From a virus: 53,671 nucleotides of DNA. The notes below the pieces were generated by a model. The model had not been told where the DNA came from and ran no database searches. It saw only the letters and a program-made list of their open reading frames with translations. Positions within the stretch are counted from its first letter, which is position 1. Each line of letters begins with the position of its first letter. The translations under genes and the position numbers were made by a program. Of the stretch, positions 41,392 through 53,671 are shown piece after piece. Location: IMG/VR virus record IMGVR_UViG_3300044756_000026, positions 1 through 53,671 of that record; one strand, given 5' to 3'.

Positions 41392-41423
41392 ATCACACCC
41401 GTATATATATACGGGGGTGTGAT
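41392..41423. repeat. AT-rich hairpin, possible origin or terminator
   Basis: The perfect 18-bp palindrome CCCGTATATATATACGGG (41398-41415) is extended by ATCACA and TGTGAT with a two-G bulge. It stands in a 124-bp non-coding gap with GT repeats and ATTATCATT repeats just upstream (41,375-41,395). It follows the primase-helicase gene and lacks a T-run, so an unwinding or origin element is as likely as a terminator. Confidence 0.6.
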
Positions 41424-41471
41424 GAATGATGAAATTCTAACAGACAACCTCCACACCGGAAGGGTGATAAG

Positions 41472-41693
41472 GTGATCAAAGTTTATACCAAACCGGAATG
41501 TGTGCAATGCAAGTGGACTAAGGTATTTCTAGAGAAGATGGGCCTCGAGTATGAAGAGCATGATGTGACGCAAGATGAAGAGGCCGCAAAGGAGGTGAGG
41601 AGAAGAGGATTCGATACCTTACCCGTCGTCGTTACCGCGCAAGATGTTTGGGCCGGCTTCAAGATTGACAAATTAAAAGACTTGAAGCGTTGA
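41472..41693 (+). CDS. Glutaredoxin / NrdH-like redox protein
   Basis: A 73-residue thioredoxin-fold protein with a CVQC active site at residues 10-13, a cis-proline segment (TLPVVV near 50) and a short C-terminal helix; length and spacing match NrdH redoxins. NrdH normally reduces ribonucleotide reductase, but no reductase gene is in the window, so it would serve the host enzyme or another phage thiol protein. AAGGGTGATAAGG precedes the ATG. Confidence 0.88.
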   Translation: MIKVYTKPECVQCKWTKVFLEKMGLEYEEHDVTQDEEAAKEVRRRGFDTLPVVVTAQDVWAGFKIDKLKDLKR

Positions 41694-41711
41694 GCGCCGT
41701 CGTGATACGAT
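41682..41711 (+). promoter_or_regulatory. Promoter, family copy 2
   Basis: TTGAAG (41682-41687), an 18-bp spacer and TACGAT (41706-41711), then a leader ending in AACGAAAGGAAG before the ATG at 41744. The -35 box lies inside the end of the glutaredoxin gene. Confidence 0.7.
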
Positions 41712-41743
41712 TGTGCTGTACGTCACAACGAAAGGAAGAATCT

Positions 41744-41884
41744 ATGCCAACTCTTACGCTCAAGGAGATCGCCGAGAATCTCGGTTACAAGGACATGACG
41801 TCGTTCTCCCGAGAGTGGAAGACTCTGTCGCCTGAAGAGAAGGCGCAGTTCCGTCAAGTATGTGGAGAACGCAATGGCTCTTAA
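41744..41884 (+). CDS. Small hypothetical protein
   Basis: A 46-residue protein with helix-turn-helix-like spacing (LTLKEIAENLGYKDMTSF). The ATG at 41744 follows GAAAGGAAG and lies 33 nt after a promoter. It overlaps the next gene by 11 nt. Possibly a DNA-binding peptide; function unknown. Confidence 0.65.
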   Translation: MPTLTLKEIAENLGYKDMTSFSREWKTLSPEEKAQFRQVCGERNGS

Positions 41885-42188
41885 ACATATGCCGCAGCTA
41901 CCACGCAAGCGGATACTCGGCGTATCATTCGATCAAGAACGAGTGACTGCCGGATCAATCGAGGTCGGCGACCACATCATGATGCCCGACCGCCCGACGA
42001 TGGTGATGCGTGTGGAAGATGTCATCCAGTACAAGAACACCGTTACCATTCGCGGCGTGCTGACTAACGGCTCGAAGCAGATGTTCAATCGTTTCCGCAT
42101 CGGACCAGTGCATCGTGTGGTGTGGCACAATCCAGAGTTCAAGGCAAAGCTTGATGCCATTATTGACGCAGGAGTAAAGGGTGAGTAA
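41874..42188 (+). CDS. Hypothetical beta-rich protein
   Basis: A 104-residue protein with an SH3- or Hint-like strand pattern (IEVGDHIMMPDRPTMVMRVE). GGAG precedes the ATG at 41874, which overlaps the upstream gene by 11 nt. No catalytic residues stand out. Confidence 0.65.
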   Translation: MALKHMPQLPRKRILGVSFDQERVTAGSIEVGDHIMMPDRPTMVMRVEDVIQYKNTVTIRGVLTNGSKQMFNRFRIGPVHRVVWHNPEFKAKLDAIIDAGVKGE

Positions 42189-42408
42189 TTTCGGAGTGCG
42201 CTGCGACGGGCGACACATCAAGACGAAGAAGGAACTGAGGGATCTGGTGAAAGCGGGCGTCGAGCTGTTCGCCTACGATACTTCGTCCTTTAGTAACCGC
42301 GGCGTCGTACGTGTCACGGAACTGTTGCCCGAAGACGTGATCGTCGGACCGGATCCGGATACGAAGCGATCGTGGTTCGCTAACTACAAGGACGGGAAAA
42401 TCGTATGA
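42181..42408 (+). CDS. Hypothetical small protein
   Basis: A 75-residue protein starting at GTG with AGGAG eight bases upstream, overlapping the previous gene by 8 nt. It has a helix (KTKKELRDLVKAGVELF) followed by strands, and is basic to neutral. Function unknown; it is part of a chain of coupled early genes. Confidence 0.6.
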   Translation: MSNFGVRCDGRHIKTKKELRDLVKAGVELFAYDTSSFSNRGVVRVTELLPEDVIVGPDPDTKRSWFANYKDGKIV

Positions 42409-42689
42409 ACTGCCCAGCGTGTGGGTTCGCTAACGATGCTTACGTGGAATACAAACAGGAGGGACCGGACGTTGACTCACGCGAACCTAGTAGTGGCGAC
42501 GCTCTCCTCTGCTATTCTTGTGCAGCAGTTCTTACGCTCAATGAGGAAGGCGAACTCGTGTACCCAACGCAGGAACAACGGATGCGATGGGTCCGAGAAC
42601 CTCTTGTCCAACAAGGAATCATCCAGCTGATGCTGCACATGACGATACATGAGCTGATCGCTGAGCAGGAAAGAACCCCGGGGGGGTAA
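42405..42689 (+). CDS. Zinc-ribbon protein
   Basis: A 94-residue protein with two CxxC knuckles (CPACG at residues 3-7 and CYSC near 36-39), a likely zinc ribbon, then a helical C-terminus (IQLMLHMTIHELIAEQE). It overlaps the previous gene by ATGA. It may bind nucleic acid or act as an adaptor; no specific function is visible. A run of seven G lies at its end. Confidence 0.65.
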   Translation: MNCPACGFANDAYVEYKQEGPDVDSREPSSGDALLCYSCAAVLTLNEEGELVYPTQEQRMRWVREPLVQQGIIQLMLHMTIHELIAEQERTPGG

Positions 42690-42748
42690 TTTAGGCTTTA
42701 CGTCCAAAAAAATCACAGAGAATTCTGAGACTTTGAAAGAAGAATAAT

Positions 42749-42997
42749 ATGCCTTTGAACGAGACCCAAGACGCGGTTATGTGCGAAGTCAAGGACGGCT
42801 ACCTGATCAATGTTCTCGCAATCCACGCAATTACACCTGACGATGAATTTATGGAGCCAAGTTCACGAATTTACCTTTCAAGTGGTTCAAAAATCTCTAT
42901 TGAAGGCATAACGCCACACCAGATTGTGGATCAGGTGATGACAACACTCCGCGAGGCACAAGCGATGATTCTGGGGAGGATTGAGTCTAGTGACTGA
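42749..42997 (+). CDS. Hypothetical small protein
   Basis: An 82-residue acidic protein: strands in the first 55 residues (YLINVLAIHAI, then RIYLSSGSKISIEG) and a C-terminal helix. GAAAGAAG precedes the ATG. It overlaps the following gene by 8 nt. No family recognised. Confidence 0.6.
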   Translation: MPLNETQDAVMCEVKDGYLINVLAIHAITPDDEFMEPSSRIYLSSGSKISIEGITPHQIVDQVMTTLREAQAMILGRIESSD

Positions 42998-43919
42998 GCG
43001 GAAGTCGGTACAATTCCGTATCGACGAGTCTCTTGCCGACATTGACGCCCTGATCGACGCACAGCTGGCTCAAGGTCCGGTTGACGACTACAATGTGGAC
43101 CGATACGACCACTGCCACTGGTGTGGGTACACATGGCACGGATTGCCGATCACCGAGCACATGCGCGAGATGCAGTCGTATGGTCAGATGTACGACGGCT
43201 ACAAGTACAGCGAAGACGATAGCGCATGGATCTGTCCTGGTTCTGACTACTATGGACCAATGCACGAGTCTGGTCACTGGAATAAGGAAGCGAGGGAACG
43301 TTGGGCTAATCGCCTCGCTGACTTTCCAGTCCCCCAAGACCGAGTCTTGTCAGATCAGTCTGGGTACTCACTTGCTGACCTTGAACTTCTTCGGAGTCGT
43401 GACCGATCGGTCGGGCTTTACCAACAGCGACGGACTGATTACAGCTACACTCGAACTCGTCGCACCCTCAAACGTTATCGCTTTGACCCCCCTGATTGGC
43501 GATCCTGGCGAATAAGCATGGAGCACGATCAGGACTTTGACGAGATCATGGGCTTCGGTAGTCCGTATCGTCAACTGCGGTCGAGTCGCACGTACTTGGA
43601 GATTGATTACGAGGGACGCTTGCAAGTGACTCATGGAATGCGCATTCCTGAGCAATTCATTTCAGAATGGACGTTGACAGGAACGCATCAAGATCAGGTG
43701 CTCTGGGCTCGGATGCGCACATGGAAAGTAGAGATCAAGCAAATCGTTCTGTACGCTCATACTCCGGAGCATCGTCTGGAGGAGCCGTCTCGACATGATG
43801 AGTCGCGTCGAGACAACGAACCACAGTATATTGATGTGGACACATATGACAATCCACTGGAGCTTGTGTGGTGGAACGATTTCTGGAAGGATTTGGGTGA
43901 TGCGCCGGAACAATCATGA
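42990..43919 (+). CDS. Hypothetical protein interrupted by a tail-gene-like segment
   Basis: A 309-codon frame. Residues 1-110 carry a plausible zinc site (HCHWCGYTWHG, then ICPGSDYYG). The middle (43,330-43,515) is Arg/Tyr-rich and unconvincing in this frame, while the +1 frame there reads like the N-terminal domain of the tail protein at 19,161. The last 133 codons (from ATG 43518, HDQDFDEIMGFGSPYRQL onward) look genuine and could be a separate gene. GGGAGG lies before TTG 42981 and GTG 42990; GTG is chosen. This may be two genes flanking an insertion. Confidence 0.5.
   Translation: MTERKSVQFRIDESLADIDALIDAQLAQGPVDDYNVDRYDHCHWCGYTWHGLPITEHMREMQSYGQMYDGYKYSEDDSAWICPGSDYYGPMHESGHWNKEARERWANRLADFPVPQDRVLSDQSGYSLADLELLRSRDRSVGLYQQRRTDYSYTRTRRTLKRYRFDPPDWRSWRISMEHDQDFDEIMGFGSPYRQLRSSRTYLEIDYEGRLQVTHGMRIPEQFISEWTLTGTHQDQVLWARMRTWKVEIKQIVLYAHTPEHRLEEPSRHDESRRDNEPQYIDVDTYDNPLELVWWNDFWKDLGDAPEQS
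43330..43515 (+). pseudogene. Fragment of tail protein N-terminal domain (+1 frame)
   Basis: In the frame offset by +1 from the surrounding ORF, the translation aligns with residues 10-60 of the tail protein at 19,161: LG at the same spacing, then NFFGVVTD against SFFGHVTD, then ITATLEL against VVATLEI, then LIGDPGE against LIGPQGIPG, after which it stops (TAA 43513-43515). DNA identity is low, so it derives from a diverged relative, not a recent local copy. There is no start codon with a ribosome-binding site. The match is by eye. Confidence 0.55.
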
Positions 43920-44355
43920 GATAAGGGACGCTGAGAACGACATTCTTGGGTATACGCCTTCACGATTCGTCACGGCGTATCACGAGTTAATTTCTTCTTG
44001 CATGCTAATGGCGTCCAGTGGCGACCAGGAACCCAATACGCGCATCGCAACGCCAAAACGCAAATACAGCACACACACAGGAGGGCTCAGGGACGAAGCT
44101 TCAATGAGATTTAAAGCATGGGTCGATAGAGAGCTACGTGTACTAGCTCGAGACATGGAAGCATTCATACATGCGCGCGGCGCCGAACGTGAGTACATGA
44201 GAGCACGCGCTGATTTGAAGTGCAAAGGCTGCGGAAAGTATGTGCAGTGGCACTGGCATTTCTGCGCCTGGTGTGGGCACGTCATGGTGCATACCATGGA
44301 CACGCTCCGGACCAGGAACGAAGAACGATTGGGAATCATATCGAACGGTGAGTGA
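43900..44355 (+). CDS. Zinc-ribbon protein
   Basis: A 151-residue protein. The N-terminal part is helical, a basic middle follows, and a four-cysteine ribbon lies near residues 110-130 (CKGCGKYVQWHWHFCAWCGH) with extra His residues. The ATG at 43900 has GGAAGG upstream and overlaps the previous ORF by 20 nt. It is probably a nucleic-acid-binding or adaptor protein. Confidence 0.65.
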   Translation: MRRNNHEIRDAENDILGYTPSRFVTAYHELISSCMLMASSGDQEPNTRIATPKRKYSTHTGGLRDEASMRFKAWVDRELRVLARDMEAFIHARGAEREYMRARADLKCKGCGKYVQWHWHFCAWCGHVMVHTMDTLRTRNEERLGIISNGE

Positions 44356-44358
44356 GAT

Positions 44359-44520
44359 GTGGACTGGTTACAAGGTCTGGCATTGATCGCAACATTAGTC
44401 GGAACCTTTGAGTTCGGAAGAGTCAGAGGATGGGAGAAAGGATATAGTTATGCCTGGAAAGAAATATCGCTCTATCAAGAAACCAAAGATGTACGAGGGC
44501 CTAAGGAAGAAGGGGTTTAG
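44359..44520 (+). CDS. Possible small membrane-associated protein
   Basis: A 53-residue frame from GTG, three bases after the previous stop codon. The N-terminal helix WLQGLALIATLVGTFEFG is hydrophobic enough for membrane insertion, followed by a basic/aromatic region (GWEKGYSYAWKE). It overlaps the better-supported small basic gene at 44,450 by 71 nt, which lowers confidence. Confidence 0.4.
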   Translation: MDWLQGLALIATLVGTFEFGRVRGWEKGYSYAWKEISLYQETKDVRGPKEEGV

Positions 44521-44575
44521 CAAGTCGTCAGCGGCAAAGATCAGCAATGCTAAGTCAAAGAAAAAGAAGAAATGA
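44450..44575 (+). CDS. Small basic protein (DUF7218-like fragment pattern)
   Basis: A 41-residue, very basic protein. Its wording (SIKKPKMYEGLRKKGFSKSS, then AAKISNAKS and a Lys tail) matches a short motif I associate with DUF7218-type actinobacterial proteins (KNPK-YEALR-KGMSKSRAARI). AGAAAGGA lies 7 nt before the ATG. It overlaps the next gene by ATGA. Function unknown; it is likely to bind nucleic acid. Confidence 0.6.
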   Translation: MPGKKYRSIKKPKMYEGLRKKGFSKSSAAKISNAKSKKKKK

Positions 44576-44667
44576 CCACGTTCTGGGCATCGGTGATCGT
44601 CAGTATCTTGGCAGGTGGTACTACCGGATTCATAGTCACATGGCTTTCCATCCGGTTCCGCCGCTGA
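44572..44667 (+). CDS. Tiny single-pass membrane protein
   Basis: A 31-residue protein that is one transmembrane helix (FWASVIVSILAGGTTGFIVT) ending in a basic IRFRR tail, coupled by ATGA to the upstream basic gene and overlapping the next gene by 28 nt. Size and topology resemble small phage membrane peptides, including minimal holin-like or antirestriction/exclusion proteins; the sequence cannot distinguish these. Confidence 0.5.
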   Translation: MTTFWASVIVSILAGGTTGFIVTWLSIRFRR

Positions 44668-44930
44668 ACTTTCCGCCTCGTCCGTTCGAGGCGTTCACAC
44701 AGTGCCCGCGTTGCGAGTACATGGGTTACGCTTTCCTCAGACCCCTGTTGCGTGTGGTTCACCATGGGCCGATCAAGCGGTTGGACAACGGTGACGGTAC
44801 GACGACTGAAATCCACGCGTTCGGAGATACGTGGGATTCATATCATGAAGTCGATCCAGCAGTAGAGAAGCCGAGCACGATAGAACGTCAATGTCAAGTA
44901 TGCCACTATAGATGGGAACAATTACCATGA
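44640..44930 (+). CDS. Zinc-finger-like protein
   Basis: A 96-residue protein with two well-separated Cys pairs, CPRC near residue 22 and CQVCHYRW near the C-terminus, joined by a Pro-rich start and a central polar region. This is a likely zinc ribbon. It overlaps the membrane peptide at its start and the next gene by ATGA. Confidence 0.6.
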   Translation: MAFHPVPPLNFPPRPFEAFTQCPRCEYMGYAFLRPLLRVVHHGPIKRLDNGDGTTTEIHAFGDTWDSYHEVDPAVEKPSTIERQCQVCHYRWEQLP

Positions 44931-45169
44931 CCGAGAAAGCACCTCCTGGCGGAGGTACAATAGAAGCTAAACTCTGGTTCAAAACTGAATGTGGGCAATG
45001 CTCGGGTCAACAGGAGGATGGATCAGTAGCTTTACATTGGGATGAAGATTCGTCGTATGCTGAGGATTTTGCGGTGGCTCATGTTAACGCTAATGCTGAT
45101 CACGTGGTGACTATCACTACTCAGGTACTGATTCTTCCACCGGAGGCTCGTCAGTCGTCTCTTGATTGA
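44927..45169 (+). CDS. Hypothetical small protein with CxxC
   Basis: An 80-residue protein with a central ECGQCSG, acidic flanks, and alternating hydrophobic residues near the C-terminus (HVVTITTQVLILPP). The two cysteines could bind metal with partners or be redox active. It is coupled to the previous gene by ATGA. No family recognised. Confidence 0.6.
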   Translation: MTEKAPPGGGTIEAKLWFKTECGQCSGQQEDGSVALHWDEDSSYAEDFAVAHVNANADHVVTITTQVLILPPEARQSSLD

Positions 45170-45284
45170 CGAATGGTTCAGCATCGGGTTCGCCGTGTGT
45201 TCGGCGGTATTCTACGCAGCTTGGGCAAAAGCAATTTTCGTGGTAATGCGTCATTTCTTCGGACATTGCAGCTTCCTTTCGTGA
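45162..45284 (+). CDS. Possible tiny membrane protein (TTG start)
   Basis: A 40-residue frame from TTG overlapping the previous stop codon; it reads as one hydrophobic helix (FAVCSAVFYAAWAKAIFVVM) with flanking charges. There is no good ribbon of upstream ribosome-binding sequence (GGAGG is 15 nt away). If it is not a gene, 45,170-45,341 is an intergenic region with the promoter at 45,297. Confidence 0.3.
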   Translation: MIDEWFSIGFAVCSAVFYAAWAKAIFVVMRHFFGHCSFLS

Positions 45285-45296
45285 GAACCATTACGA

Positions 45297-45302
45297 TACG
45301 AT
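45297..45302 (+). promoter_or_regulatory. -10 box, promoter family copy 3
   Basis: TACGAT (45297-45302), preceded by an overlapping TACGAT (45292-45297), six bases, then an ACACACGACGAA-type leader before the ATG at 45342. No good -35 box is visible; the -10 and leader match the family. Confidence 0.55.
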
Positions 45303-45341
45303 TGTAACGCACGCATTACACACGACGAATGGATCTTACAA

Positions 45342-45608
45342 ATGAAATGTCCAGAATGTGATAGCGACAATGTTCAGCTAACGCAATTCATCGAGGACCC
45401 GCCAATTGATATTCCATGTAAAACAGAAGGGTATGCGGATGAAGTTCATTGTCTCGATTGCATGGGAGTGTTCGTACCTGACAAACTGAAGAAAGTTTGG
45501 ATCAAATCGCATCTCGCTGATGTACCAATCGAAGGCAACATCGACGATGCGGATACGTTGCGACAACTCCTAGAAAAGAAACTGGAATCTTTGGACGATG
45601 ACGATTGA
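45342..45608 (+). CDS. Zinc-ribbon protein
   Basis: An 88-residue protein with CPEC at residues 3-6 and CLDC near 37-40, a classic zinc ribbon, followed by an acidic helical tail ending in Asp repeats. It is the first gene of a transcription unit following the -10 box at 45,297. It overlaps the next gene by 11 nt. Confidence 0.68.
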   Translation: MKCPECDSDNVQLTQFIEDPPIDIPCKTEGYADEVHCLDCMGVFVPDKLKKVWIKSHLADVPIEGNIDDADTLRQLLEKKLESLDDDD

Positions 45609-45924
45609 CAAACGCCTGCGTCGGCAACAACGCAAGGCGCAGAAAACGGAAGACAACTCGTGGGGCGGGTACGCGGGTCGTTCGTTAGGTGAGATCATCG
45701 CCGAGGAAGCGGACAAGCGATTCGTCAAACGCAAAGGCGGAGACATGTCCGTCGAGAACGAATGGGAAATGCGAGGCGTGTTGCTCGCACTATCCATTCT
45801 GCGTGGGTCGTCGGTCAATGAAGAAATAAGGCGAATGAAAGGAAGAGTAAAGCATGGCGAAGCCGAAGTCGATACAAGCAGAGGCACGCAAGTACGGAAA
45901 GTCCGTCGCCGCGTACCTGAATGA
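45598..45924 (+). CDS. Hypothetical basic protein
   Basis: A 108-residue basic protein with an Arg/Lys/Gln-rich N-terminus, a helical middle (LGEIIAEEADKRFVKRK) and a short hydrophobic helix (MRGVLLALSILRG). The last 24 codons overlap the next gene and are Arg/Val-rich. No family recognised. Confidence 0.6.
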   Translation: MTIDKRLRRQQRKAQKTEDNSWGGYAGRSLGEIIAEEADKRFVKRKGGDMSVENEWEMRGVLLALSILRGSSVNEEIRRMKGRVKHGEAEVDTSRGTQVRKVRRRVPE

Positions 45925-46141
45925 CAAGACGAAGAAAGGAGCATTCAATGCTGGTGTGGTGTGGAACGATGACGACGTAGCCACTATCGTTCAGATGATT
46001 GAGAACGACAGCACCACCTTCGATATGGCGATCACGCTCGGTCGTACGTACTACGGCGCGCTCAACGCACGCGCACACATCGGTTTTGCAATGCGGCACT
46101 CAGACGTGATCTGGGGCACCATGACGAAAGGCAAGAAGTGA
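45854..46141 (+). CDS. Putative helix-turn-helix protein (SANT/Myb-like spacing)
   Basis: A 95-residue protein. The core W-N-D-D-D-VATIVQMI, then MAITLGRTYYGALNARA, fits the phage DNA-binding pattern in which a W/D start, an acidic first helix and a LGRT-x-x-G-x-x-N recognition helix recur. GAAAGGAAGAG precedes the ATG. It is probably a DNA-binding regulator, or a partner of the HNH protein encoded nearby. Confidence 0.65.
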   Translation: MAKPKSIQAEARKYGKSVAAYLNDKTKKGAFNAGVVWNDDDVATIVQMIENDSTTFDMAITLGRTYYGALNARAHIGFAMRHSDVIWGTMTKGKK

Positions 46142-46317
46142 TACACACTGGCGATTACGTCAAGGTGAATCCAATGTCGAAGGTATACAAGGTCAAGGCA
46201 GTATACGGCGACAGTCTCCAGCTTACGATTGCACCCGACCATCCAGACGGGGCAAAGTATGACCGCAATTTCTGGACAACAAGAGATAAGGTGATTGAAG
46301 TTGAAGCAATACGTTGA
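46138..46317 (+). CDS. Small beta-rich protein
   Basis: A 59-residue protein starting at GTG overlapping the previous stop codon (GTGA). The sequence alternates like a small SH3 or KOW barrel (IHTGDYVKVNPMSKVYKVKA). It overlaps the next gene by 17 nt. Although short, its clean codon pattern and position in the coupled chain support a real gene. Function unknown. Confidence 0.6.
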   Translation: MIHTGDYVKVNPMSKVYKVKAVYGDSLQLTIAPDHPDGAKYDRNFWTTRDKVIEVEAIR

Positions 46318-46657
46318 CGGCACCCTCGAGGGCAGCCCTGAAGAATTAGCCGCATACAAGCACATCGACGCGATGCTCGCGCGCAAGAACAAGCCGGCAC
46401 CGAAGGCAATAGAAGCGAAGAAGGCACCGGTAAAAAAAGAACGCTCGAAGAATAGAGTATCGTCGGACGCGATCCTACTCTTCATTGAAGAACGCGAGGG
46501 GGCGACTGCTGCGGATATAGCTGAACAATTCCCCGGGCTCCCCCGAAAGGCAGCGTACAACAGACTATATCAACTGAGAAAGCAAAACAAACTCTGGTTG
46601 ACGGATCGTGGTGTGTTCAAGCTCGAGCGAAACAATGCCGAAAAAGCAGCGACGTAG
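46301..46657 (+). CDS. Winged helix-turn-helix protein
   Basis: A protein of about 118 residues. A Lys/Ala/Pro-rich linker (residues 25-55) precedes a C-terminal winged helix: SSDAILLFIEEREGATAADI, then RKAAYNRLYQLRKQNKL and a wing ending in GVFKL. This MarR/IclR-like layout implies DNA binding. The start codon is TTG at 46301 or 46295, both overlapping the previous gene. It overlaps the HNH gene by 23 nt. Confidence 0.68.
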   Translation: MKQYVDGTLEGSPEELAAYKHIDAMLARKNKPAPKAIEAKKAPVKKERSKNRVSSDAILLFIEEREGATAADIAEQFPGLPRKAAYNRLYQLRKQNKLWLTDRGVFKLERNNAEKAAT

Positions 46658-47015
46658 TTGGACCCGTCCCGGACTGTCGGATGCTGCTGCACAACGCCGA
46701 TGGTCCGGGATACGGGCGTCTGTATTAAACCGTGACAAACACTTGTGTCAGGCGAAGTTGTGGTGTTGTACGATTAAAGCGGAGGAGGTACATCATGTCT
46801 ACGCACGTTTCCGCAACCGCGATAACGTGGATGACAGGAAGTCGAACCTCATGTCTGTGTGCAAGAACTGTCACGAGATTCTCACGACGAACGACGTTGT
46901 GGCTGAACGTGAAATGAAGAAGTGGTTGGCGCACGTGGAAAAGATGAAGTTCTCGGATGCTCCGGGAATTCTGAAGAAAGGTGAAAAGTACGATGGTCGA
47001 CATGCCGAAGGTTAA
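46635..47015 (+). CDS. HNH endonuclease
   Basis: A 126-residue HNH nuclease. Two CxxC-type pairs (CQAKLWCC and CKNCHE) frame the catalytic segment HHVYAR and NLMSVC, the usual H-N-H order with structural zinc. A basic N-terminus precedes it. In many HK97-like phages an HNH protein beside the terminase aids DNA cutting at packaging; here it lies about 6.7 kb from the right end, so it could instead be a free-standing nuclease. It overlaps its upstream neighbour. Confidence 0.88.
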   Translation: MPKKQRRSWTRPGLSDAAAQRRWSGIRASVLNRDKHLCQAKLWCCTIKAEEVHHVYARFRNRDNVDDRKSNLMSVCKNCHEILTTNDVVAEREMKKWLAHVEKMKFSDAPGILKKGEKYDGRHAEG

Positions 47016-47169
47016 GAAGCTCACTGCTGACATTGAAGCCGTGTTGGTGGCACATCAGCACACGCGGCAGATCTATCCAGGACGTTGTACCTGTGATGCG
47101 CTCAAGCCGCGCAACCCGGAGCAGTGGCGTCGGCATCTCGCCATTCAACTCAGGAAAGTGATGACGTGA
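46993..47169 (+). CDS. Hypothetical small protein
   Basis: A 58-residue protein (VDMPKVKKLTADIEAVLVAH, then CTCD and RRHLAIQLRKVM). Short actinophage proteins with this helix / CxC / helix layout are common, but their function is unknown. AAAGG precedes the ATG at 46993; a GTG at 46981 is also in frame. It overlaps the HNH gene by 23 nt. Confidence 0.6.
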   Translation: MVDMPKVKKLTADIEAVLVAHQHTRQIYPGRCTCDALKPRNPEQWRRHLAIQLRKVMT

Positions 47170-47173
47170 TGAG

Positions 47174-47281
47174 ATGTTGGCACACTCCGTTCTGGAACTG
47201 TTCTTAGTATTCGACTGCGGTGTAGGTGTGGGAGTGTTCGTTGTCTGGCTCGGATTCTGGTGGGGGAAGCGGCGAAAGTGA
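47174..47281 (+). CDS. Tiny membrane protein
   Basis: A 35-residue protein with a single strong transmembrane helix (VGVGVFVVWLGFWWG) and a basic GKRRK end, starting 4 nt after the previous stop codon. It could be a minimal holin or other membrane peptide; no holin was found next to the lysins. The ribosome-binding site is weak. Confidence 0.5.
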   Translation: MLAHSVLELFLVFDCGVGVGVFVVWLGFWWGKRRK

Positions 47282-47340
47282 GGACGCGTCCGTACACCAT
47301 GGGCTAAACCCAGGACGTGTACTTCTCACCATAGGCCGAT
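47278..47340 (+). repeat. Dispersed repeat copy B, double
   Basis: GTGAGGACGCG at 47278 begins a partial copy with CACCATGGGC (47295-47304). A full copy follows at about 47,311-47,340 (GGACGTGTACTTCTCACC, then ATAGGCCGA), very close to copy D at 52,778-52,803. Confidence 0.65.
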
Positions 47341-47505
47341 GTGGTTCCAAAATGCGGGTATCAGCAGCGCACACGATGGCCAGCACGGCCTATACGGCCA
47401 CATACATCATATATATGCGCGATGCGCGCGCGATCCTGAATGGTGGCTTAAAGTGGTAGCGGCATTGGGATGACGTGACTCAGCTTAATGACATATAATC
47501 GCGTT
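47282..47505. other. Non-coding region with repeats and promoter
   Basis: No credible gene in 224 bp. It contains repeat copy B, an AT-rich ATATATAT stretch near 47,410, GCGCGATGCGCGCGCGATC (47,417-47,435), the element AAAGTGGTAGCGGCATT (47,450-47,466) shared with 50,600, and the promoter for the gene at 47,506. Confidence 0.6.
47470..47499 (+). promoter_or_regulatory. Promoter, family copy 4 (leaderless gene)
   Basis: TGACATATAAT, with TATAAT at 47494-47499 and a weak -35 (ATGACG, 47470-47475) 18 bp upstream. The ATG of the next gene begins seven bases after the box, exactly where transcription should start. Confidence 0.75.
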
Positions 47506-47850
47506 ATGACGAACACACGAACCGAACGCACGAAATACCTGGATCCCATCATCACGGAGTTCAGCTTGTATGACATGTCAGCCGCCGATGAATCTGACCC
47601 CGATCCAATCTACGTCGATGCGCGCAATGCCTCCGACCACATCGGCGGAATGATCTCTTTGCGTAATCACATCGCGTACAACGAACTCCGCCTGATCGAA
47701 CAAAAGGAATGGGGTTCGCACGACGAGGCACGTTACGAATTGTGGAACGTGGGTGTGCCCGTTGCTATCCTGTGCCTCGCAACGATGCCGCGCGACGTGT
47801 ACGAAGAAGCCAACGCCCCCGAACAGTTCGCCGACCTCGAAGGAGAATAA
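47506..47850 (+). CDS. Hypothetical protein, leaderless, ESDPDP family
   Basis: A 114-residue acidic protein. An ADESDPDPIYV segment is shared with the protein at 50,656 (SEESDPDPVHH), and the surrounding helical pattern also matches, so the two are diverged paralogs. The start is set by the promoter: an upstream in-frame ATG at 47488 lies at the -10 box and cannot be transcribed. No ribosome-binding site is needed for a leaderless mRNA. Function unknown. Confidence 0.7.
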   Translation: MTNTRTERTKYLDPIITEFSLYDMSAADESDPDPIYVDARNASDHIGGMISLRNHIAYNELRLIEQKEWGSHDEARYELWNVGVPVAILCLATMPRDVYEEANAPEQFADLEGE

Positions 47851-47854
47851 CGAC

Positions 47855-48040
47855 ATGGACATGGTACGCATCGAAGGCAAGCAGCTCGAGAACCTGATCG
47901 ACACGTTGACGCGATACAAGGAGGCAACGGGTCGTGATCCGTATCTCCTCCGTATCGCATGGCAAGGCGAATCCGTGTTGATGAAGGTCAACGAAGGATT
48001 GTGGTCCGCTCCGATGGGAACGAAACAGGAGGCATATTAA
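47855..48040 (+). CDS. Small hypothetical protein
   Basis: A 61-residue protein (helix then strands; DTLTRYKEATGRDPYLLRIA in its centre). AAGGAG at 47840 precedes the ATG. Not recognised. Confidence 0.62.
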   Translation: MDMVRIEGKQLENLIDTLTRYKEATGRDPYLLRIAWQGESVLMKVNEGLWSAPMGTKQEAY

Positions 48041-48042
48041 TC

Positions 48043-48204
48043 ATGGGATATTACGAACCCGATGAGGTTGACGAATGTCCGTGCGCGAACGATGAGCCGT
48101 GTTGGGCACATCCCGATCTCGAACGATGGGCAGCTCTGTTCCAAGAAGTCCCGAACGATTACGACGAGGAATCAAGATTCATCAGAGAAGAGGCGATGAC
48201 GTGA
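48043..48204 (+). CDS. Small Cys-containing acidic protein
   Basis: A 53-residue protein with ECPCANDEPCWAHPDLERW, a three-Cys/His cluster that could bind metal, and an acidic helical end. AGGAGG precedes the ATG at 48043. It overlaps the next gene by 4 nt. Confidence 0.65.
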   Translation: MGYYEPDEVDECPCANDEPCWAHPDLERWAALFQEVPNDYDEESRFIREEAMT

Positions 48205-48647
48205 ACACGACGCGGAGATGTACGCAATGCGGAGAGTTGTGTGAGCTGCTCGATGATGCGAGGATGTGGACCGAACTGTTATCCAATTGTCACACCGCTC
48301 CCGTCGTGTGGGATAGACCGCATGTGACAGGCGATCACTTAGCCGCCATCAACATGATCGCCATTCTCCAACCGTTGTGCGCACAGTTCTCGCGCGATCA
48401 CGGAAACGTTCCGTTGAAATACAATCCGTATTTCTCGATGATGGAAGGATTGGAAGAGAAACTGCCTGATGAGGCAAAGAGTTACCACTGCAAGGTACAC
48501 GGGTGGAACGCGATATTGACCACGAAGCGGAACAAGGACACCATTCCGTATTCGGAAGGTGACGTCGAATGCGCGGCGTGCCTCGAGCAAGATGAGACCG
48601 CACATGATACCTGTGTGTGGGGACAGGAGATTGACGACAAATCATGA
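48201..48647 (+). CDS. Hypothetical Cys-rich protein
   Basis: A 148-residue protein with a GTG start overlapping the previous stop codon. Cys sites CTQCGELC (residues 7-14), CKVHGW and CAACLE suggest one or two zinc sites; the centre is helical (LAAINMIAILQPLCAQF). No recognised family. Confidence 0.65.
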   Translation: MNTTRRCTQCGELCELLDDARMWTELLSNCHTAPVVWDRPHVTGDHLAAINMIAILQPLCAQFSRDHGNVPLKYNPYFSMMEGLEEKLPDEAKSYHCKVHGWNAILTTKRNKDTIPYSEGDVECAACLEQDETAHDTCVWGQEIDDKS

Positions 48648-48940
48648 ACGACCGCGAAATGCTCTCAACCAAGATGCGGCGTACCACGTCGTGGAAACAC
48701 ATCGCAGCCCGTGATGCAACGATTCCCGACATGCCGCACGTCGGCTCCATGTTGTTCACGCGTACGTGGTACAACGAGAGGGATGCGCGTGTGATCGTGG
48801 GTGAGTTCGACCAAGACAAAGGATTCTTTGCAGCTCGCATGTATCACGCGGAAAAGGGACTGTCGTACGGCGTACGTGATCAGGAAGTAGCCGGCGCGTA
48901 CGTCATGTCGCAGGTCCTCGAGTGGATAGGTGAATCCTAA
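48644..48940 (+). CDS. Hypothetical protein
   Basis: A 98-residue protein coupled to the previous gene by ATGA. Strand/helix alternation (SMLFTRTWYNERDARVIVGE) gives a compact alpha/beta look; no cysteines or membrane segment. Unknown function. It is the last gene before the promoter at 48,958. Confidence 0.62.
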   Translation: MNDREMLSTKMRRTTSWKHIAARDATIPDMPHVGSMLFTRTWYNERDARVIVGEFDQDKGFFAARMYHAEKGLSYGVRDQEVAGAYVMSQVLEWIGES

Positions 48941-48957
48941 ACCAGTTCCGTACGAGG

Positions 48958-48987
48958 TTGAACAATCTGAGCTGTTTACGATATAAT
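48958..48987 (+). promoter_or_regulatory. Promoter, family copy 5
   Basis: TTGAAC (48958-48963), 18 bp, TATAAT (48982-48987), GACGCG, then the leader AACGCACACACACGAAAGGA and the ATG at 49020. Confidence 0.85.
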
Positions 48988-49019
48988 GACGCGAACGCAC
49001 ACACACGAAAGGAACGCAC

Positions 49020-49286
49020 ATGCCAAGAACCCAACGCGTTGATGACGTACGCGACGAGGACGGATACATCATACAGGGAGGATATTCGTTTTGGGAATGT
49101 GAACGATGCGGAGAAGAGGTACGCCGCTATCGTGGACAAGGCGATGTGAGCTGTCACAAATGCGATGCGCAATACAACGCGTCGGGTCAACGGTTGCGTG
49201 ACAACTGGAGAGACAACCGATCGAACTACGATGACGACGTCTCCGACATGGACGGATACGAAGATTCACTGGCAGGAGATTACTGA
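49020..49286 (+). CDS. Conserved small zinc-ribbon protein
   Basis: An 88-residue protein with CERCGEEV and CHKCDAQYNASGQRLRDNW; the second knuckle with its following NASGQRLRD wording recurs in small proteins of many actinobacteriophages, as I recall. The end is acidic (DMDGYEDSLAGDY). It is likely a zinc ribbon; role unknown. Confidence 0.75.
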   Translation: MPRTQRVDDVRDEDGYIIQGGYSFWECERCGEEVRRYRGQGDVSCHKCDAQYNASGQRLRDNWRDNRSNYDDDVSDMDGYEDSLAGDY

Positions 49287-49288
49287 TC

Positions 49289-49465
49289 ATGAGCTACTGT
49301 GAAGATTACCCGTGTTGTGGGCACACGCCACAGGATCCGTGTGAACGGCAATGGTACGATGAGCCGGACGCGTTCGACACGACGAAGAATCCGCATGCTC
49401 TGTGCGATCATGAAAACGGAGAGTGCGACGTGGAATACTACGACGAGGATGAGGAATACGCTTGA
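49289..49465 (+). CDS. Conserved small CGH-motif protein
   Basis: A 58-residue acidic protein opening with MSYCEDYPCCGHTPQDPC, a Cys/His cluster I recognise from many small actinophage proteins of unknown function, followed by a second Cys pair and an Asp/Glu/Tyr tail. AGGAG lies 10 nt upstream. It is likely a metal-binding peptide. Confidence 0.75.
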   Translation: MSYCEDYPCCGHTPQDPCERQWYDEPDAFDTTKNPHALCDHENGECDVEYYDEDEEYA

Positions 49466-49548
49466 GCCTCTGGATCCGCGTGCGCATCAAAACTGTCCTG
49501 CTCGTATTAGGTTTGATCGAGGATCGGTTCGTGGATGAGAATGATTGA
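49462..49548 (+). CDS. Possible micro-ORF
   Basis: A 28-residue frame from TTG overlapping the previous TGA; hydrophobic and basic first half (VRIKTVLLVLGLI), acidic end. GAGG lies about 9 nt upstream. Too short to be certain. Confidence 0.3.
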   Translation: MSLWIRVRIKTVLLVLGLIEDRFVDEND

Positions 49549-49624
49549 GATTCTAGGATTTGGAGTTTATTCGATCACGTTGGTTGCGTGTGGGATAATC
49601 ATCACTCTCCGAAACACGGGTTGA
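49535..49624 (+). CDS. Possible tiny membrane peptide
   Basis: A 29-residue frame that is essentially one transmembrane helix (ILGFGVYSITLVACGIIITL) and a short polar end. It overlaps the micro-ORF upstream and ends at the -35 box of the next promoter. Confidence 0.4.
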   Translation: MRMIEILGFGVYSITLVACGIIITLRNTG

Positions 49625-49650
49625 TCCACTGGAGCTGAATGACATATAAT
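49621..49650 (+). promoter_or_regulatory. Promoter, family copy 6
   Basis: TTGATC (49621-49626), 18 bp, TATAAT (49645-49650) inside TGACATATAATGACGTG, then AACGCACACACACGAAAGGA before the ATG at 49683. Its core is nearly identical to copies 5 and 8. Confidence 0.85.
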
Positions 49651-49682
49651 GACGTGAACGCACACACACGAAAGGATGACAA

Positions 49683-49991
49683 ATGCCGAAACAAGCCGAC
49701 AACGATTTCCGTCGTTATGATCGTGCGACGATGATCCGTTCCAACGAACGCCTCGACGATACGTTACGCGCGATGATCGCTGAGCTTCTCGAAATCCTCG
49801 AACACGACAATTTGTCGCAGCTCATACAATGGTCGAGGAAAGTCTCCGCCGCGATGAAACGTGGGAACAGGCGACAATCAGCCGCGTTGCATGTGTTGTT
49901 GATCCTCGCGACACAATCCGACGAGGGAGATACCCGCAAACGAATCTCCGACGACGTGCGTGCATTCGGGCGCGCCTTGAATGTGATGTGA
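49683..49991 (+). CDS. Hypothetical helical basic protein
   Basis: A 102-residue protein, predicted nearly all helical (DDTLRAMIAELLEILEH, SAALHVLLILATQSDE), basic overall. It has a good promoter and AAAGGA. No family recognised. Confidence 0.68.
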   Translation: MPKQADNDFRRYDRATMIRSNERLDDTLRAMIAELLEILEHDNLSQLIQWSRKVSAAMKRGNRRQSAALHVLLILATQSDEGDTRKRISDDVRAFGRALNVM

Positions 49992-49995
49992 GCTG

Positions 49996-50115
49996 ATGTT
50001 ACACGAGATCTTCCACATGTGTATGTGTATGGGATTCGGCATGTGTGTCGAATGTGCAGGAAAACAAATTATCAGGAAGGTAAAGGAATGCAATTCACGC
50101 GTACGAGCCAACTGA
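49996..50115 (+). CDS. Possible Cys/Met-rich small peptide
   Basis: A 39-residue frame five bases after the previous stop codon. The first half is dense in Met and Cys (HMCMCMGFGMCVEC), the second half basic. The composition could indicate metal binding. It overlaps the better-supported gene at 50,088; no good ribosome-binding site. Confidence 0.3.
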   Translation: MLHEIFHMCMCMGFGMCVECAGKQIIRKVKECNSRVRAN

Positions 50116-50297
50116 CTGGTGTGGAGCACACGATGGAGGTGAACTGCACACAGGAACAATGGAATGAATATCTGGGTGGGCATAAGCTGATCCAGAACAT
50201 CATGCCCGACGTGCCTGCCGAACAACGAGAATTCCTCATGACAGGCATCACGCCTGATGAATGGGATACGTACGTGGGTGATGGCGATGAGGATTAG
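50088..50297 (+). CDS. Conserved small protein
   Basis: A 69-residue acidic protein whose wording (SQLTGVEHTMEV, EQWNEYLGG, EFLMTGITPDEWDTYVGD) matches a family of small proteins I recall from actinophages, small plasmids and microvirus-like genomes. Function unknown. AAAGGA precedes the ATG. Confidence 0.72.
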   Translation: MQFTRTSQLTGVEHTMEVNCTQEQWNEYLGGHKLIQNIMPDVPAEQREFLMTGITPDEWDTYVGDGDED

Positions 50298-50469
50298 AGT
50301 TCAATTCACGGTTGAGGTTGATCCTGATTTGTACATCGAGAAGTTCTTGTTGCCCGATGATGTGCGTGCCGACGTACGGCTCCACGTGAACAATCAAGCC
50401 ATCGACCATGTCATGTACAGCTGTCACGACAATGGCGTGCCAATCCAATTGATCTCACACAATTGTTGA
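50281..50469 (+). CDS. Hypothetical small protein
   Basis: A 62-residue protein beginning AMRIRVQFTVEVDPD, a beta-rich start followed by an acidic helix; start ATG 50281 or 50287. It overlaps the previous gene by 17 nt. A perfect inverted repeat follows the stop codon. Confidence 0.6.
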   Translation: MAMRIRVQFTVEVDPDLYIEKFLLPDDVRADVRLHVNNQAIDHVMYSCHDNGVPIQLISHNC

Positions 50470-50474
50470 CGTCA

Positions 50475-50540
50475 TCCCTAGGCGACCATGCATATGCGAC
50501 GACACGATGACACACGCAAACGTCACTGGTCGCCTAGGGA
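50475..50540. repeat. Perfect 14-bp inverted repeat
   Basis: TCCCTAGGCGACCA (50475-50488) and its exact complement (50527-50540) flank a 38-nt loop. The arm itself contains the palindrome CCTAGG. There is no T-run. The region 50,470-50,655 has no gene; besides this repeat it holds AAAGTGGTAGCGGCAT (50,600-50,615) and a promoter. Confidence 0.8.
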
Positions 50541-50619
50541 CGCACACACACGATCCGACGCACGTCTTGGTTGCACGTGTCGCGCGACGTGCGCATCCGA
50601 AAGTGGTAGCGGCATCTGG

Positions 50620-50649
50620 TTGTATATTGTGAGCCGCTTGACATATAAT
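50620..50649 (+). promoter_or_regulatory. Promoter, family copy 7 (leaderless gene)
   Basis: TTGTAT (50620-50625), 18 bp, TATAAT (50644-50649), six bases ACGTGT, then the ATG at 50656, where transcription should start. Confidence 0.78.
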
Positions 50650-50655
50650 ACGTGT

Positions 50656-50934
50656 ATGACGAACACATACGCAGCCGACTTTTATTCGTACGCGCAATCC
50701 GAGGAATCCGATCCGGATCCTGTGCATCACGTGCAAGCCGATACCGTCGGTGAGCTCTTGTTCCTGATGAACGAACTCCTCGATCCGATGTTCACGAACA
50801 TCTCTTACAAATTCATCGACAACGACGACACAACCGAAAACTCATTCCGCCTACAAGCCGTGTCTCCGATTGACGAACGAACTCTCCAAATCAATGGTGT
50901 GGTCGACGTGTACGAATTGAAGGATGGAGAATGA
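50656..50934 (+). CDS. Hypothetical protein, leaderless, ESDPDP family
   Basis: A 92-residue acidic protein paralogous to the one at 47,506: both begin MTNT, both have ESDPDP, and both are predicted leaderless from matching promoters. The C-terminal half differs more. The start is fixed by the promoter; longer upstream readings run through the promoter and inverted repeat. Function unknown. Confidence 0.72.
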   Translation: MTNTYAADFYSYAQSEESDPDPVHHVQADTVGELLFLMNELLDPMFTNISYKFIDNDDTTENSFRLQAVSPIDERTLQINGVVDVYELKDGE

Positions 50935-51152
50935 TGCGGGTAGCCCTTGCATTGATCGCATTGTGTTTAGCCACTGCGCCACATGCGAATGCGAAGCCAA
51001 CGATCTGTGATCAACTATCCGCGGCATCTTCTGTAGAGGATGTGTGGAACATATTCGTTGAACATGGCGCACAGAAGGTTGCGGATACAGCCCACGAATC
51101 ATGCCCCGAGCATGGCCTGAAAATCATTGCCGCATTGAAGGCATTTGAATGA
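50931..51152 (+). CDS. Small secreted protein
   Basis: A 73-residue protein with a signal peptide (MRVALALIALCLATAPHANA) and a mature part of about 50 residues with two cysteines (ICDQL, ESCPEH), likely one disulfide. The layout resembles short DUF732-type mycobacterial secreted proteins, though the match is weak. It overlaps the previous gene by ATGA. Confidence 0.65.
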   Translation: MMRVALALIALCLATAPHANAKPTICDQLSAASSVEDVWNIFVEHGAQKVADTAHESCPEHGLKIIAALKAFE

Positions 51153-51209
51153 CCCGCGGGGAGCCTGACATTTTCGATCCGCGGGCAGCCTGACATCCGA
51201 AAGAGGTTG

Positions 51210-51239
51210 TTGCGCATTCTGAGCCGCGTGACATATAAT
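51210..51239 (+). promoter_or_regulatory. Promoter, family copy 8
   Basis: TTGCGC (51210-51215), 18 bp, TATAAT (51234-51239) in TGACATATAATGACGTG, leader TACGCACACGAACGAAAGGA, ATG 51274. Upstream, 51,153-51,200 carries two direct copies of CCGCGGG-AGCCTGACAT. Confidence 0.85.
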
Positions 51240-51273
51240 GACGTGTACGCACACGAACGAAAGGAATACGAAT

Positions 51274-51822
51274 ATGCTCCTGAACCAATTCCGCGAAAAG
51301 GGTTCGTTCCACCCGACGCCTCAAACGACTGAGCTGCTGCGCATGTTGGATATAAACTTCCAGCGAGCCGCACATAACAAATACGGGGAGGTCCTGTTGC
51401 ATGAGTTCGCCTACCGCAACGTACGAGACCTGATCGGCCTCTCACATTTGTATGGCGGGCAGTACCTGTCGAATGACGGGATCGACGAATTCTGCAATGA
51501 CATTGAAGCCGTGCTCTTCCTTGATTTCGCAGAAGAGCTGTACGCGTGTTATTGCGACGACGAGGATATCAAGGATCCGGAGAGCGTCGGGTATCGTGAA
51601 TTCTCCACGAACGTTGATGTGGCACAAGCCACGTTGAAGAACCTGCGGGAGCTTGACATCGACGTGCTGAAGCTGTGTGCCGACATACGCCCGTTGTATT
51701 TCGACAGCCTGTTCGATGACAACATATCGGGGCAGACCTACACATTCGACGGAGAGACCGACGCCATCGACTTGATCGAAGCCATCGTCAACAAAATCAT
51801 CGCACGCCTGCAGACAGCCTGA
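51274..51822 (+). CDS. Hypothetical acidic protein
   Basis: A 182-residue, strongly acidic, helical protein (LYACYCDDEDIKDPESVGY in its centre; ETDAIDLIEAIVNKIIARL at the end). It is the largest gene in the last 8 kb and has a strong promoter and AAAGGA. An in-frame ATG at 51238 lies within the -10 box and is excluded. No known family; the acidity could indicate a DNA-mimic or protein-binding role, which is speculative. Confidence 0.7.
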   Translation: MLLNQFREKGSFHPTPQTTELLRMLDINFQRAAHNKYGEVLLHEFAYRNVRDLIGLSHLYGGQYLSNDGIDEFCNDIEAVLFLDFAEELYACYCDDEDIKDPESVGYREFSTNVDVAQATLKNLRELDIDVLKLCADIRPLYFDSLFDDNISGQTYTFDGETDAIDLIEAIVNKIIARLQTA

Positions 51823-52099
51823 CACCACACACCACCGCGCGGGTAGCTCCGTGCGTGTGGGTTAGGTTGGGCGGCTCCGCGGCGGCTCACCGCACCAGAC
51901 CCAGGAGCGGTCACCACACCACGGGCCAAACCCCAGACGGACTCACCACACCATGGGCCGATCCAACAACACCAACACGTGCGGGAGCCCTGCGCGGCAG
52001 CCCTGTGCGGAGCCCCTGCGGCAAGGCCTGGGGTGGCTTGTGTGCGGCGTTCAGCGGGAGCGGCTTAAAGTGGTGCGTGACATGTGCGGCTGCGTACGA
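51823..52099. other. GC-rich non-coding repeat region
   Basis: No credible gene. Three copies of a TCACCACACCAYGGGCC-type unit lie at 51,886-51,962 (the first degenerate), related to the dispersed repeat. They are followed by four GCGG-AGCCC-type units at about 51,980-52,030 and the element CGGCTTAAAGTGGTGCG (52,061-52,077), which resembles sequence before promoter copies 4 and 7. Confidence 0.6.
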
Positions 52100-52105
52100 T
52101 ATAAT
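52077..52105 (+). promoter_or_regulatory. Promoter, family copy 9
   Basis: GTGACA (52077-52082), 17 bp, TATAAT (52100-52105) in TACGATATAAT, six bases, then ATG 52112 at the predicted transcript start. It reads in frame into the secreted-protein gene, whose own ATG at 52160 has GGAAGG upstream. Confidence 0.75.
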
Positions 52106-52159
52106 AAATACATGCGCGAAACACACACAGAGATCACGCGCACACGGAAGGAAACACAC

Positions 52160-52531
52160 ATGAAGGCTCTTGTAATCGCAACGTGCGCGGTGGCCGCGTC
52201 ATTGTCGTTCGCATCGCACGCGTACGCACAGCCCGACGACGATGCCTACGAACGAGAGATGACAATCAAGCTCTCGCAAATCGCGGACGAGATCGACGAC
52301 ATCCCGACGTGCATGATGGAAGACGGCTCCGACGTGATACCCGCGCACGGTGGCCGTTGTTTGTGGATGAACGACGGGAACACGTGGTTGACATACGAGG
52401 ATCGTTCGTTCCTCATCGTGGATGATTCCGTCGTGTCGGCTCCGCGCGTCGTGTGTTCGACGTACGGCCGATGCGATTTGTACGACGACGGAGCCTTCGA
52501 ACAAGGCACGTTCGTCGGAGGGTACAACTAA
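52160..52531 (+). CDS. Secreted protein with disulfide potential
   Basis: A 123-residue protein with a clear signal peptide (MKALVIATCAVAASLSFASH, cleaved near AYA-Q), followed by an acidic domain with four cysteines (TCMMED, RCLWM, VVCSTYGRC). The mature fold is probably beta-rich and extracellular. The ATG at 52160 with GGAAGG is preferred; a leaderless start at ATG 52112 in the same frame would add 16 polar residues and spoil the signal peptide. A perfect terminator follows. Confidence 0.72.
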   Translation: MKALVIATCAVAASLSFASHAYAQPDDDAYEREMTIKLSQIADEIDDIPTCMMEDGSDVIPAHGGRCLWMNDGNTWLTYEDRSFLIVDDSVVSAPRVVCSTYGRCDLYDDGAFEQGTFVGGYN

Positions 52532-52569: not shown

Positions 52570-52628
52570 CGTGCGCAACGAACCACACGCAAGCCGCGCG
52601 GGCGGTTGAACGCGAACGGAGCCAGACG

Positions 52629-52967
52629 TGTGACGTGGATCACATGCGGCCCTCGGCCAGCGGCGGCAAGGTCGGGGCTCCGCGGCGGGAGGTTTTCAGA
52701 CGGCGGGCGGTGGCCACACAGCGGCGAGCGGAGCGGCGGGGGGAGCTGCGCGGCGGCGGCGGAAAACGGCCAGAGTGAGGACGCGAGCTTCTCACCACAG
52801 GCCATTTAACGGAGGGGCGCGGATTCGGGGGGTCGAAAAAGGGGCGCGCGCGGGCGGGTGTGACGTGGGTCACAGGGCTGTGATGTGGGTCACACGCGCG
52901 GATGGAATGTGACGTGGGGCACATCGGGGGCGCATTGTGACGTGGGGCACATGTGACGTAGCACACA
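52629..52967. promoter_or_regulatory. Cluster of six CRP/GlxR-like sites
   Basis: Three perfect TGTGA-N6-TCACA sites begin at 52629, 52859 and 52879, two with GCACA in the right half at 52908 and 52936, and one degenerate site at 52952. The N6 spacer is also conserved (CGTGG followed by A or G in four). The region 52,570-52,961 has no gene; it is very GC-rich and also holds repeat copy D at 52,775-52,803. Confidence 0.75.
52775..52803 (+). repeat. Dispersed repeat copy D
   Basis: GTGAGGACGCGAGCTTCTC followed by ACCACAGGCC; 21 of 25 bases from GGACG onward match copy B at 47,312-47,336. Non-coding context. Confidence 0.65.
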
Positions 52968-53001
52968 CATGCGAATGTCGTTGTGCGCGTGCATATCATG
53001 A

Positions 53002-53007
53002 TATGAT
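53002..53007 (+). promoter_or_regulatory. -10 box, promoter family copy 10
   Basis: TATGAT, six bases, then ATG 53014 followed by CAACGCACACACACACG, the family leader motif. The -35 would be TCGTTG (52978-52983, 18 bp). It lies just downstream of the last CRP-like site. Confidence 0.7.
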
Positions 53008-53013
53008 CGTGTC

Positions 53014-53085
53014 ATGCAACGCACACACACACGACGCGCGCGTTGCATCGTCGTGCGCACACACGCGCGACGCGTCACGAAATGA
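53014..53085 (+). CDS. Leaderless Arg/His/Thr-rich micro-ORF
   Basis: A 23-residue frame beginning at the predicted first transcribed base (MQRTHTRRARCIVVRTHARR). Its stop codon lies one base before the next start, so it could deliver ribosomes to a downstream gene that cannot have a Shine-Dalgarno sequence. It may be a leader peptide or simply the 5' untranslated region. Confidence 0.45.
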   Translation: MQRTHTRRARCIVVRTHARRVTK

Positions 53086-53086
53086 A

Positions 53087-53485
53087 ATGACACACGAAAT
53101 GACAAACGCAAAATCGACAAACGCACGCACGACACGCACGCGCACGACGCGCAAATCGAACGTCGTCGCAACGCGTGACGCACGCGCAAACGCAATCGCG
53201 TCGCGTGTCGCGTACATCATGCGCGTTGACGCATCAACGATTGACGATGCGTTGATCGCACACGTTGACGCGCAATTGACGCAACGACGCGTTGATGCGC
53301 ACGTGATCAACGACGCGCAATTGCGCGACATGATCATTGCGTTCACGAACAACGACAACGTTCGACGCGTGTACGAAAATCACGATGCGTGTTACGCGTC
53401 GAACGCACACGACAAATCGAAAATCGCACGCGCGAAATGTCGTCGTGAACGTCGTGCGCGCATCGTGAACGACGCGACGAAATGA
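53087..53485 (+). CDS. Hypothetical basic protein lacking Gly, Pro and Trp
   Basis: A 132-residue, Arg/Ala/Asn/Asp/Thr-rich protein; an N-terminal Thr/Arg region (residues 8-30), then helices (RVAYIMRVDASTIDDALIAH, QLRDMIIAFTNNDNVRRVY) and a basic end (KIARAKCRRERRARI). Codons are limited by the dinucleotide rule: only AAA for Lys, CAA for Gln, GAA for Glu, TTG for Leu, CGN for Arg, TCN for Ser. The start is ATG 53087 or 53099. The helical pattern suggests a folded, possibly nucleic-acid-binding protein. No family recognised. Confidence 0.65.
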   Translation: MTHEMTNAKSTNARTTRTRTTRKSNVVATRDARANAIASRVAYIMRVDASTIDDALIAHVDAQLTQRRVDAHVINDAQLRDMIIAFTNNDNVRRVYENHDACYASNAHDKSKIARAKCRRERRARIVNDATK

Positions 53486-53565
53486 TCGACGAATTTGTCG
53501 ACACGCGCGACGACGTGATCGACATGTTGATGCGCATACGCGACGCGCACAACGACGACGAATAA
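53482..53565 (+). CDS. Acidic micro-ORF at right end
   Basis: A 27-residue acidic peptide (DEFVDTRDDVIDMLMRIRDA) coupled by ATGA to the previous gene and obeying the same dinucleotide rule. It ends 28 nt before the terminator stem. Its acidity complements the basic protein upstream, as in some small partner pairs; that is only a suggestion. Confidence 0.5.
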   Translation: MIDEFVDTRDDVIDMLMRIRDAHNDDE

Positions 53566-53593
53566 CGTTCGCGCACAACACAATTGAATAACA

Positions 53594-53634
53594 CGTAACG
53601 CGCATGACGAATTATGTTGTGCGCGTTACGTTTT
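53594..53634 (+). terminator. Rho-independent terminator at right end
   Basis: CGTAACGCGCA (53594-53604) pairs perfectly with TGCGCGTTACG (53620-53630), followed by TTTT and further T-rich sequence. The right arm can also pair with an upstream arm at 53570-53585 to form an alternative hairpin. Confidence 0.88.
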
Positions 53635-53671
53635 CATTTGTGTGTATGTCAAGACATTACGTCAATCGAAT

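Follow-up and report, generated by a model that had tools for sequence, protein, structure and literature searches.

The window analysed here is an entire IMG/VR virus record of 53,671 bases. It belongs to an actinobacterial virus related to the cluster AB mycobacteriophages: its large terminase is closest to that of JacoRen57 (68.6% identity), NoShow and Muddy are among the matches that follow, and gene-by-gene comparison revealed the same genome plan as in JacoRen57, NoShow and Muddy. The records of these three phages give Mycobacterium smegmatis as the host, and NoShow is reported to be closest to cluster AB (PMC10586156). A cassette at 33576-36951, homologues of which are found in JacoRen57, NoShow and Muddy, holds genes for a dCMP deaminase, a thymidylate-synthase-like protein, a 300-aa phrog_13667 protein, a dUTPase-like protein and a kinase-like protein, and may serve the production of a modified nucleotide.

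An array of CRP-like palindromes, all listed here on the plus strand, lies between the gene at 52160-52531 and the last transcription unit, 0.7-1.0 kb short of the record's right end. A site search located exact TGTGANNNNNNTCACA at 52629..52644 (TGTGACGTGGATCACA), 52859..52874 (TGTGACGTGGGTCACA) and 52879..52894 (TGTGATGTGGGTCACA), and copies with one mismatch at 52908..52923 and 52936..52951 (both TGTGACGTGGGGCACA) and at 52952..52967 (TGTGACGTAGCACACA), each of them 16 bp long and the last adjoining its neighbour. These results bear out the initial annotation, which had placed three perfect and three near-copy palindromes at 52,629-52,967, with five sites within 110 bp and inner spacings of about 16-29 bp: five of the six are packed into 109 bp (52859-52967), and the successive centre-to-centre gaps are 230, 20, 29, 28 and 16 bp, the last four separating the inner sites. 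A predicted -10 element, TATGAT (53002..53007, plus strand), likewise begins where the promoter had been put, at 53,002, and is followed after 6 nt by an ATG at 53014, in a predicted leaderless arrangement. Counted from this predicted ATG, the six sites are centred at -377.5, -147.5, -127.5, -98.5, -70.5 and -54.5, respectively.

The unit downstream reads on the plus strand. A predicted leaderless mini-ORF of 23 aa (53014..53085), with its ATG taken from the promoter scan and its frame read by eye, precedes the main ORF of 132 aa (53087..53485), which contains a KSKIARAKCRRERR segment shared with gene 73 of JacoRen57; a possible second small ORF of 27 aa (53482..53565), likewise read by eye, overlaps the stop of the main ORF, and an intrinsic terminator (53593..53641) consists of a 17-pair stem at 53593-53631 and a T-rich tail. 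Searches of Pfam and PHROGs with the 132-aa ORF gave no match, no relatives of it were found in the viral contigs or phages searched, and the matches from an Rfam search all fell well short of the gathering scores. Additional leaderless mini-ORF starts, in which TATAAT is followed after 6 nt by ATGACGAACACA, were observed in the right arm at 47494 and 50644.

The six-site cluster is far beyond chance. In 2000 dinucleotide shuffles of 52600-52999, six sites with no more than one mismatch never arose (the maximum was one), and in 60 shuffles of the whole window the biggest cluster within 340 bp was two sites. Sites with up to two mismatches showed no enrichment across the window (31, versus 35.1 in the shuffles); the signal of the array is its clustering and its near-perfect matches, as opposed to the ordinary window-wide count. 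Outside the array, the window holds just two one-mismatch sites (41712 and 50628). Cluster A stoperators are many repressor sites scattered across a genome, and the array does not fit this pattern with only those two one-mismatch sites elsewhere in the window. All six copies have the spacer CGTGGG or a near variant in common (repeat family D1), and two 28-bp units in the array region are 82% identical (repeat D10).

The two M. smegmatis regulators Crp1 and Crp2 are reported to share the consensus TGTGA-N6-TCACA, and Crp sites at M. smegmatis cydA are centred at -65.5 and -93.5 (PMC7739888); the top M. tuberculosis ChIP sites include -62.5, -69.5, -95.5 and -130.5 (PMC4117774), and activation through such a site is described for M. 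smegmatis ahpC (PMC4218801). The array resembles these mycobacterial CRP operators (M. smegmatis Crp1, MSMEG_6189, at cydA; M. tuberculosis Rv3676) in having the same consensus, with three exact and three one-mismatch palindromes, and in its upstream positions of about -54 to -98, as the sites at -54.5, -70.5 and -98.5 lie at activator-type distances from the predicted start and the inner sites repeat at the 28-29 bp pitch that is seen at cydA. Its differences from cydA are the number of sites, six instead of two, the pair that abuts and the conserved spacer, and binding in the window is putative. One dimer per site would be feasible, or nearly so, at the gaps of 20, 28 and 29 bp. The CRP footprint is of a size that leaves sites spaced by 16 bp too close for two dimers; as this is the distance between the abutting fifth and sixth sites, simultaneous occupation of both by CRP dimers is unlikely.

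The consensus was also counted in a putative host family: the 81 genomes of the family to which a Rhodococcoides genome belongs contained it 537 times, versus 72 for a reversed control, and at least once in 79 of the 81, at a density of 1.4 per Mb, compared with 3 in the 53.7 kb of the window. Promoters of phage T1 are under host cAMP-CRP control (PMC6737242), which is like the reading of the window as a phage gene tied to host CRP; T1 is unlike the window in that its host is E. coli, the control is repression, and it was shown experimentally, and the available text of that source makes no mention of a six-site array.

Among the cluster AB phages with a related genome plan, NoShow is like the window in its site type and JacoRen57 in the dinucleotide-free zone described below, whereas the six-site array is present in the window and absent from NoShow, JacoRen57 and Muddy. 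The whole NoShow genome contains two perfect TGTGA-N6-TCACA sites, both reading TGTGACG[TC][AG]GGTCACA and both preceding genes, at distances of 0.9 and 2.7 kb from the genome end, where they lie upstream of predicted leaderless ATGACAACGAAC starts at -54.5 and -65.5; five leaderless ATGACAACGAAC starts occur in the right 12.8 kb of NoShow, and three of these five have no site. A search of the JacoRen57 genome found no perfect site; one-mismatch sites occur there at -57.5 from the leaderless start of gene 73, at about -54.5 from a second predicted promoter, and at two further places. Muddy contains zero sites at no more than one mismatch in the two stretches that cover its genome. The search in relatives that the initial annotation had proposed gave a mixed picture of conservation ahead of the equivalent unit: the sites of NoShow are perfect (2/2), those of JacoRen57 are degenerate, and Muddy has none.

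A perfect site was present in 3 of 20 records searched, namely NoShow and the contigs behind L029 and L011, which had themselves been picked by an exact site, and fifteen IMG/VR terminase relatives, many of them fragments, had zero perfect sites. An exact-spacer search of IMG/VR yielded 39 stretches, among which L029 and L011 alone had at least four sites (no more than one mismatch) within 400 bp; L037 had 11 such sites spread across the contig, and the remaining stretches had few sites or one. The IMG/VR contig L029 carries ten TGTGAC-type palindromes (no more than one mismatch) in 386 bp, at 131-516, upstream of a TATAAT-like sequence and a 636-aa ORF. CGTCAC stands on one side of most of them, several abut, with a spacing of 15-16 bp, and the architecture of the array looks the same in this other virus, which was picked by one exact site. 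A similarity search with the array against 50,697 phage records gave one match, at chance level, and a search of open-licence papers found no description of such an array or of a phage gene free of GG, CC, AG and CT.

The best reading, with a probability of about one half, is that the array consists of CRP-family operators and governs the right-end transcription unit. The six palindromes would be operators for a CRP-family regulator of the actinobacterial host, a putative protein through which a link to cAMP may run; from its place upstream of the predicted leaderless promoter, the active regulator would most likely raise expression of the right-end unit, with contact made at the promoter-nearest sites (-54.5 or -70.5) and local occupancy raised by the upstream copies. 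The CRP-type proposal of the initial annotation is plausible in view of the consensus, which equals that of mycobacterial Crp, and of the promoter-like positions in three phages; it is at odds with the abutting pair and the conserved spacer, as CRP needs no spacer such as CGTGGG. Furthermore, at gaps of 20, 29, 28 and 16 bp the sites do not fall on one face of the helix, the mismatches are confined to the three sites closest to the promoter, and the lack of sites in Muddy and before three of five NoShow starts, together with the degenerate sites of JacoRen57, also counts against CRP.

Conservation of the spacer points to recent duplication or else to a protein of narrower specificity. Operators of a phage- or host-encoded regulator of this narrower kind, one that reads TGTGACG-N3-GTCACA, tolerates abutting sites and resembles CRP only in part, are a tentative alternative, in keeping with the spacer shared among the window copies, with the pattern common to both NoShow sites, and with the ten L029 sites, which mostly have CGTCAC on one side and several of which abut; however, the window copies may owe their shared spacers to the duplication seen in D10, and L029 was chosen by that spacer in one site. 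Exact TGTGACGTNGGTCACA was present in 0 of the 81 host-family genomes, but about one match would be expected by chance (an estimate from the 537 sites), so this zero is uninformative, and a search for a candidate regulator gave just one weak MerR-like ORF. It is unlikely that the palindromes arose, without function, when sequence was duplicated locally within G-rich non-coding DNA, as the D10 units could suggest, because their flanks have diverged while the palindromy is kept, and NoShow again has this type of site at promoter positions.

The array could also act as a decoy that titrates a host CRP-family regulator once the phage genome has replicated, given six sites per phage genome versus an average of about 7 perfect ones in each host-family genome (537 over the 81 genomes); a local role fits better with an array directly before a promoter, and with two single NoShow sites placed likewise, and titration is accordingly judged quite improbable. 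Slightly less probable still is a part in packaging, as a cos/pac element recognised by the small terminase subunit, or in replication, for which the location near the right end of the record (0.7-1.0 kb) would speak. The packaging option of the initial annotation is disfavoured by Muddy, which has no site at up to one mismatch despite a related terminase (its small-terminase homologue is 47% identical to that of the window over 111 aa), and by the NoShow sites, which precede genes at their two distances from the end; a packaging array was rejected as the main reading because Muddy lacks the site.

The unit that adjoins the array is more surprising than the array itself. On both strands, GG, CC, AG and CT are absent from 52961..53651, a zone of 691 bp that is free of RG/CY steps, so that neither strand has a G after a purine, whether the sequence is coding or not; no further missing tetramer was found in the zone. 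The initial annotation had passed over this absence. The next longest such run in the window is 42 bp, and in 73 further loci, which overlap in part and add up to 784,128 bases (a count that left out L001-L004 and L059, the holders of the zones), the longest is 53 bp. Three later loci had runs of no more than 28, a 104-base run of masked N in L080 aside; three loci from bacterial-genome relatives contained neither zone nor site. NoShow and Muddy have no zone, their longest runs being 49 and 26 bp.

JacoRen57 has at its right end RG/CY-free runs of 106 and 422 bp that are parted by a single AG, giving a zone of 529 bp around gene 73 (MK279840.1, about 51,707-52,235; 11708-12236 of the stretch 40000-52411). 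The zones of the window and JacoRen57 share a 42-bp stretch (92.9% identity, E = 2e-7) that encodes ARAKCRRE, and their comparison reported no match beyond it. A motif with the same core, SHxxCxHxxTKxARAxCRR, occurs in proteins of Gordonia and Streptomyces phages, the DNA of which does have RG/CY steps, and one stretch of the Streptomyces phage KimJongPhill encodes about ten different small proteins that have this motif or near variants close to their start. No relatives of JacoRen57 gp73 were confirmed in viral contigs, and no encoding of ARAKCRR without RG was found in the viral contigs searched.

In both the window and JacoRen57 the zone corresponds to one unit from promoter to terminator, with ends that are predicted: in the window it begins 53 nt before the predicted start, and it ends after the first T of the terminator tail, by about 20 nt in the window and about 17 nt in JacoRen57. 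These edges approximate the DNA reach of RNA polymerase, and because of this match we infer a DNA-level constraint tied to the transcription of the unit, which, with two examples and predicted ends, is a lead. A pure coding cause is disfavoured, as each of 2000 synonymous recodings of 53087-53485 carried at least 29 RG/CY steps (mean 50), and so is an RNA-level cause, as the promoter before the predicted start and the DNA past the T-run are also free of them. Thymidine-type modification was likewise set aside as the cause, given that homologues of the cassette occur in Muddy and NoShow, both of which lack the zone. A zone gene in which AGG is impossible has no Shine-Dalgarno site, which fits leaderless starts. 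The candidate causes are a modification of RG/CY steps, a nuclease or defence system with such a signal, a binding compound and an unknown mutational process.

A combined reading, in which the array drives an RG/CY-purged unit that is the sole one transcribable when the RG/CY steps of the phage are blocked or attacked, is doubtful. Such blocking or attack would come from a modification that the phage makes to its bases, from a defence enzyme of the host or from a compound that binds DNA, and the product of the zone would be a first-expressed takeover or counter-defence factor. That two diverged phages both keep RG/CY out of an entire transcription unit, strictly and symmetrically on the two strands, points to a process acting on a two-base DNA signal, one without assignment to a known system. 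If the array binds host CRP, an actinobacterial phage would tie one of its genes to the energy and cAMP state of its host.
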